Shown here piece by piece: positions 23,555-24,085 of a stretch of DNA of 48,856 nt. Location of the stretch: contig CALGOB010000006.1 in assembly GCA_937958005.1 (NCBI GenBank), positions 1 to 48,856 of the forward strand, in the 5' to 3' direction. Positions within the stretch are counted from its first letter, which is position 1; each line of letters begins with the position of its first letter. The notes under the pieces are model-generated. The model had not been told where the DNA came from, searched no databases, and saw nothing but the letters and a program-made list of their open reading frames with translations. A program made the position numbers and the translations under genes. Source of the DNA: an uncultured Cyclobacteriaceae bacterium. GTDB taxonomy: Bacteria; Bacteroidota; Bacteroidia; Cytophagales; Cyclobacteriaceae.

Positions 23555-24085
23555 TGATTTATTGAGTATTGTTTATTGACTCAAATTATTGTTATCCATT
23601 TCGAAACATGAAAATTAATCCTGATAAGTCCTTTTTTCTCATGCAGTCGCTAAATTAACAAATAGTTTCTTAATACTAGATAGGTATCGTTACTGTAAAT
23701 AAAAGGTTTCTATATTTATGATATTTTGTCGTCAATTTTGTATTTGACAATTAGAGATTATCACGATCTATTTTGTATTCTCTTATGTTGCTGATGAAAA
23801 TACGAAGCAATGGAATTTACAGAGTTATTAAACTAACGATGTGGTATCCCTTAATAAACAGGTCGTGATAATGTCTTTAAGACTAAAAGAATTCATTTCC
23901 TAAGGGATATTAACCCCTCTGGTCAGGCATCCCGACTCTTCCACGAGCACTGAAGCCTCTTTGCGTAGGTTCTGAGTCGATCATTATATCCCTTACCCTT
24001 CTACAAGCACCGTAGCTTTCTCTTCGGAGGCACTGGGTCAGGGTTGGTTCATTATTGAATTTTTACCAATTATTAATAATTCTGT
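23555..24085. other. Intergenic region holding the expanded repeat copy E
   Basis: AT-rich DNA upstream of icd (minus strand), then repeat copy E (23894-24053), which ends 33 nt from the stop of the T9SS protein gene. No additional gene was seen. Confidence 0.6.
23894..24053 (+). repeat. Three-hairpin intergenic repeat, copy E, with inserts in two hairpin loops
   Basis: Diverged long-form copy. The CGACTC/GAGTCG stem (23933-23938 and 23974-23979) has a 35-nt loop instead of TT. The ACCC/GGGT stem (23995-23998 and 24035-24038) has a 36-nt loop instead of TT. The two loop sequences align with each other at about 25 of 36 positions (both begin TTCnACnAGCACnGnAGC). Confidence 0.9.

Follow-up and report, generated by a model that had tools for sequence, protein, structure and literature searches.

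The paired hairpins with expanded loops that we studied belong to a repeat copy, here called copy E, in a window of 48,856 nucleotides (the whole stretch of DNA that was analysed, from an uncultured Cyclobacteriaceae bacterium). Its filled loops are not unique, and copy E is one old copy among several hundred in the genome. The same genome contains an intact insertion sequence (IS) whose ends match those of the family and which encodes a Y1 transposase, and therefore the structures that an initial annotation of this DNA had listed as second and third stems are the left-end (LE) and right-end (RE) hairpins of an IS200/IS605-type element that lacks a gene. Copy E is very probably an old copy of a PATE/MITE-type element that was derived from such an IS by loss of the transposase gene; it would have been mobilized by the mechanism proposed below.

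Copy E and its parts are located as follows:

23898 to 24053, + strand: copy E of the non-autonomous IS200/IS605-type element, old, decayed and with both tips long (long/long, LL; profile match 23893-24053)
23892 to 23897, + strand: target-type hexamer TTCATT (consensus TTTAAT) 5' of copy E, assigned from the counts of TTT before AAT and from nested insertions
23933 to 23979, + strand: LE hairpin of copy E, matching the place of the LE hairpin in the intact IS
23990 to 24043, + strand: RE hairpin of copy E, matching the place of the RE hairpin in the intact IS

With an extent of approximately 23898-24053, the copy is larger than the span first annotated (23933-24038). It is identical to the LL consensus at 137 of 161 aligned positions, and 17 consensus columns are missing. 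The LE stem is formed by CGACTC (23933-23938) and GAGTCG (23974-23979) around a tip of 35 nt (23939-23973), and the RE stem by 23990-23998 and 24035-24043 around a tip of 36 nt (23999-24034); TTGGTTCATT runs from the RE hairpin to 24053. Direct reading showed that the loop coordinates in the initial annotation were exact and that, as it had also claimed, the stems around both loops are intact. It had further reported a match between the two loops at about 25 of 36 positions. Global alignment yielded 26 identical positions and a score of 13.5, above every one of 5000 dinucleotide shuffles of the loops (mean -0.15, sd 3.0, maximum 12.5), and the similarity of the two loops is thus well founded.

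Other copies with filled or empty loops were sought in the bacterium's own genome (5.49 Mb, 267 contigs). Both kinds recur: filled tips occur at the same two sites across the family, and short TT tips dominate. Short hairpins, with up to 3 mismatches allowed, were detected at 443 places for the left end and 443 for the right, approximately equally on both strands, and at 0 in the control. Long-tip patterns were found at 46 places for the right end and 25 for the left (control 0), both of which are lower bounds because old copies surpass 3 mismatches. A covariance model built from 20 long copies gave at least 150 matches (all of the 150 scored among 2495 candidates). In addition, a profile search gave 185 non-overlapping matches in the examined pieces, 83 of which were complete enough for classing; the remaining 102, which were partial, split or mixed, were dropped, with the result that the class with a long left and a short right tip is undercounted. 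Among the classed copies, 35 were LL, 12 short-left/long-right (SL) and 3 long-left/short-right (LS); one loop was shortened in two groups, of 4 and 3 copies. Short/short copies numbered 16 with 14 additional nt (SS112) and 10 lacking these (SS98). This set was picked from the matches and is biased towards long copies, and its class numbers do not represent genome frequencies.

Twelve Y1_Tnp matches were identified in the genome. One of them, on contig C23, lies in an intact gene whose product has 149 aa counted from the ATG (153 for the whole open frame); this Y1 transposase gene is directly flanked by the left end of the repeat, TTTAATCTCTTAGGGTTTAATTCCCCGACCCTTGGGTCG, and by its right end, GATACCCCGTACCCTTGGGTCGGGGTTGCTTCATT. 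A second IS copy, on contig C41, has a broken gene in the same layout. The C23 protein scored 116.9 bits with the Pfam model Y1_Tnp PF01797 (cut-off 23) and 125.8 bits with the NCBIfam IS200/IS605 transposase model NF033573 (cut-off 55); with the REP-associated model NF047646, against which the C23 gene alone was scored, it reached 22.7 bits, under the cut-off of 80. Its translation contains DHVHF and YVRDQ, which we take to be the HUH motif and the catalytic tyrosine motif, respectively, of a Y1 transposase. At the right end, the short repeat and the IS are 97% identical over 36 nt. The left ends are less alike than the right ends (about 83% over 41 nt), and the LE stem reads CGACTC/GAGTCG in the repeat versus CGACCC/GGGTCG in the IS. 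Tips of the IS hairpins are TT on C23 and TT/AT on C41. Other Y1_Tnp matches in this genome (L130, L131, L133-L136 and L138-L141), several of which are broken or cut by contig ends, apparently represent other families. The decayed C41 IS also contains a GC-rich block (L137, approximately 1140-1330), possibly another mobile repeat, and part of this block, reverse-complemented, borders a repeat copy on contig C225 (L040, approximately 205-240).

Short tips were also characteristic of relatives of this IS. In three other genomes of the same family, the readable ends were all short-tipped: G070 could be read at both ends, G015 at the left and G060 at the right. Among 80 loci with related transposases, several of them from one strain and thus not independent, a tip of 2-4 nt was found in the LE hairpin of 74 and in the RE hairpin of 73, in a count that looked for 2-4-nt tips alone and whose remainder lacked a flank or was unparsed; four of the unparsed LEs had a short tip by eye. 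The unpaired T of the RE stem (CCCCG-T-ACCC here) was present in 22 of 73 parsed REs under a strict pattern. An extrahelical T is recognized by the IS608 enzyme. The same loci revealed that the first base of the RE foot and a terminal base of the RE covary as G-C or A-T. All 36 distinct REs with an xATA foot behave in this way (right end only; 64 of the 80 loci could be parsed and gave 43 distinct REs, of which 7 had a different foot). A second parse, successful for 50 of 80 loci, gave 32 of 33. As the loci share ancestry, these cases are not independent. The covariation spans phyla, is seen downstream of the transposase gene in loci L216-L295, and offers a natural test of guide and cleavage-site pairing.

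The boundaries of the repeat were examined in 41 listed copies. TTT precedes AAT in 38 of them, the right ends are CATT or TATT with unrelated DNA beyond, and no target duplication was seen in these copies within the own genome. We also identified two nested insertions, in which a short copy lies inside a long-tipped copy, each exactly 3' of TTTAAT. LE and RE stems were paired in 85.0% and 85.5% of cells, respectively, in 20 LL copies. In IS608, a target tetranucleotide remains to the left of the element, which enters 3' of it, and guides located at the feet of the hairpins form base pairs with the cleavage sites (PMC5934647).

These features suggest how the family may have arisen and spread. 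A non-autonomous element would have been generated from an IS200/IS605-type IS by loss of its transposase gene. Most likely, the element would move as single-stranded DNA. The resident IS would supply the Y1 (HUH) transposase in trans, and the enzyme would bind the hairpin stems and, helped by short guides at the hairpin feet, cut the left end at TTTAAT and the right end at ..GGTTCATT, after which the element would be inserted 3' of TTTAAT without target duplication. The non-autonomous lineage may then have gained related 34-36-nt extensions on both tips, and such copies would have kept spreading. Later masters would have dropped one tip and then both, returning to TT, and the short forms would account for the recent burst. 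Long tips could be tolerated because the enzyme would read the stem and the foot rather than the tip.

Relative ages of the classes were assessed on 93 shared backbone columns. Mean pairwise identity was 77.5% for LL, 94.8% for SL, 96.3% for LS, 99.0% for SS112 and 99.6% for SS98, which gives a clear order of ages. Since LL copies are the least alike, copies with one long tip are closer to each other and copies with none are 99.0-99.6% alike, the simplest reading is that, within the family, tips were lost successively in the copies that amplified. In a midpoint-rooted tree of 68 distinct backbones (107 columns), parsimony reconstructed long loops on both sides at the root and required 8 and 11 changes of loop state when shortened loops were scored as long; the groups in this tree were mixed, as a few LL rows grouped with short ones and some SS98 rows with LL. 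Near-identical long-tipped copies were also detected. The LL copies on contigs C116 and C80 share 97% identity over 164 nt, and the left 126 nt of the C80 copy, including the long left tip, recur at 94-97% identity in seven further copies; therefore, copies with long tips also spread.

No autonomous element with long tips came to light, and an earlier step, the gain of the tips, is therefore suggested by the outgroups alone. Because the resident IS and most of the 80 related loci have short tips, the long tips were probably gained in an early non-autonomous copy, before the later losses. The initial annotation had offered, as one of two explanations, that copy E was the ancestral full form and that other copies lost both loops. 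Within the family this idea agrees with the age series and with the long parsimony root, although the tree is weak; further back, tips of 2-4 nt in the end-sharing IS and in most of its relatives imply that the long tips were themselves probably an earlier gain.

The origin of the tips can be read in other ways. If long tips were ancestral to the IS itself, and both the present IS and the young repeats had lost them, then LL copies should be old and the repeat family should root as long, and both are the case: LL copies are the oldest in the genome. Both resident IS copies nevertheless have 2-nt tips, the readable ends in G070, G015 and G060 are short, and most of the 80 related loci carry 2-4-nt tips; we consider this explanation unlikely. 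The other explanation in the initial annotation, a tiny mobile element specific for hairpin tips, with a separate entry into each of the two hairpins, would account for filling at the same point of two hairpins with intact stems around, and the short tips of related IS hairpins imply that something was indeed added. The loop pattern TTCNACNAGCACNGNAGC, with up to 2 mismatches, had 80 matches in the genome versus 11 for the reversed control; 62 of the 80 could be inspected in context, 56 of which were inside repeat copies, and the 6 outside carried 1-2 mismatches. No free-standing insert was thus found beyond chance among the inspected matches. Moreover, the left filling and the right filling form two types that are consistent across copies, which points to one old event per hairpin and not to repeated insertion. 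Independent entry of a tip-targeting element is therefore very improbable, and this proposal is not sustained.

With regard to how both tips came to be related, the simplest idea is that one tip was extended once and that the extension was then transferred to the other, similar hairpin. A more elaborate possibility is that a cassette of about 35 nt was added to one tip and copied to the other end, possibly via template switching between similar hairpins, that it was advantageous, for example by strengthening the hairpin or by offering a site to a host factor, and that it was later shed stepwise as a cost; the hairpin tip would then be a free site for a paired cargo module. We regard this scenario as doubtful. 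Gene conversion within a copy, from one loop to the other, was considered separately and rejected: similarity was 8.48 within copies and 8.88 between copies (p 0.83, n=32), and no trace of ongoing loop exchange inside copies was observed in these 32.

The hairpins might alternatively belong to a structured RNA that is transcribed and uses its loops as functional domains. Pairing was found in 83.4% of stem cells versus 36-42% after sliding, 22 double changes were counted versus 15.5 in shuffles (21 of 500 shuffles were as high), G.T mismatches exceed A.C (177 vs 131 in 45 LL rows, with an excess in 3 of 7 helices), and the crossing helices of one young RE loop were better than 998 of 1000 shuffles. 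Such pairing is equally explained by selection on hairpins of single-stranded DNA. In addition, there were 0 Rfam matches at the gathering score in the window; a permissive Rfam search of six loci gave 4 matches, all below that score; folding energies were no better than those of shuffles (z -1.14 to +0.29); no covariation was detected inside either loop class; and three of the four tested loops were ordinary for crossing helices. Stem pairing and the G.T excess together tend to favour structure in the + strand, whether as RNA or as DNA, and a functional RNA in the sense above appears hardly credible. A pseudoknot in each loop (segments A, B, A' and B') was also tried. It is allowed by the consensus, but within-class covariation was absent, and for the crossing-helix score 2 of 1000 shuffles were as high for the one young RE loop and 207, 394 and 973 for the others; it was not substantiated. 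A mobile element derived from an IS by gene loss remains our preferred explanation of copy E.

Seven further copies occur in the window:

6258 to 6369, + strand: short/short 112-nt copy
12290 to 12386, + strand: short/short 98-nt-type copy
20609 to 20705, - strand: short/short 98-nt-type copy, adjoining a terminator-like hairpin and T-run
21183 to 21229, + strand: collapsed copy, in which the left end is joined straight to the right end and both hairpins are lost
34913 to 35009, + strand: short/short 98-nt-type copy
37215 to 37301, + strand: degenerate short copy
44428 to 44538, + strand: short/short 112-nt copy

Collapsed forms were observed elsewhere in the genome as well. In three copies (C153, C203 and C23) the left loop is fused to the right loop and the core is gone, and in two copies (C105 and C61) the left end is joined to the foot of the RE hairpin; these five were picked by eye from 39 pattern rows, most of which were ordinary copies. 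Some copies lie at or beside terminator-like hairpins and T-runs (20609-20720 on the minus strand of the window, and G000:C23:10034-10131), which can hold a TTTAAT-type target. The window also contains a separate 188-nt repeat with its own inverted arms, at 36996-37183 and 48636-48823 (97% identical).

Occurrence of the family appeared to be limited. A search of 59 genomes with the LL DNA detected it in the own genome only, and the exact loop pattern gave 0 matches in genome_contigs and 0 in viral_contigs, collections that may omit the own genome. In G070, ends-only copies of the sister IS were not seen; all 9 left ends were at transposase genes. A single genome provides a relative age series (both tips long, one long, none) for change in the recognition hairpins of a still-mobile transposase-free element. 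It suggests that transposase recognition ignores the tip of the end hairpin, and the copies constitute a natural set of substrates.

Several known systems resemble this family. Palindrome-associated transposable elements (PATEs) of Haloquadratum walsbyi (PMC3119063) are likewise transposase-free, with near-terminal IS605-like palindromes and a short target oligonucleotide, and their core deletion between palindromes looks like the loop-to-loop fused copies reported here; in contrast, the present family is in another host, numbers several hundred copies in one family and carries related 34-36-nt tip extensions that come and go. IS200/IS605 elements, for which IS608 is the solved model (PMC5934647), share the Y1 transposase, subterminal LE and RE hairpins, insertion on the 3' side of a short target, which remains to the left of the element, and a guide sequence at the foot, whereas the repeat is geneless and has tips of up to 36 nt versus 2-4 nt in related IS. 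REP/REPIN sequences and their RAYT transposases (PMC3116915, PMC6006769) are similar in their many dispersed intergenic palindromic copies and putative mobilization by a Y1 enzyme. However, the transposase here scores as IS200/IS605 and under the REP-associated cut-off, and the ends are two different hairpins rather than inverted REP pairs. Tip extensions in both end hairpins are not described in the accessible parts of the PATE, REPIN and IS605 literature, a body from which subscription papers are mostly absent. A related case is a 28-nt right-end insert in IS605 elements of Halanaerobium hydrogeniformans (PMC7290912), which is also a short insert in the end-hairpin region and is accompanied by one PATE-like element; that insert disrupts predicted structures and has been described for the right end only, whereas related inserts occupy both tips here. 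The repeat looks to be of a known kind, a PATE/MITE family of the IS200/IS605 type, and its long, related and later discarded tips are new relative to the systems above.
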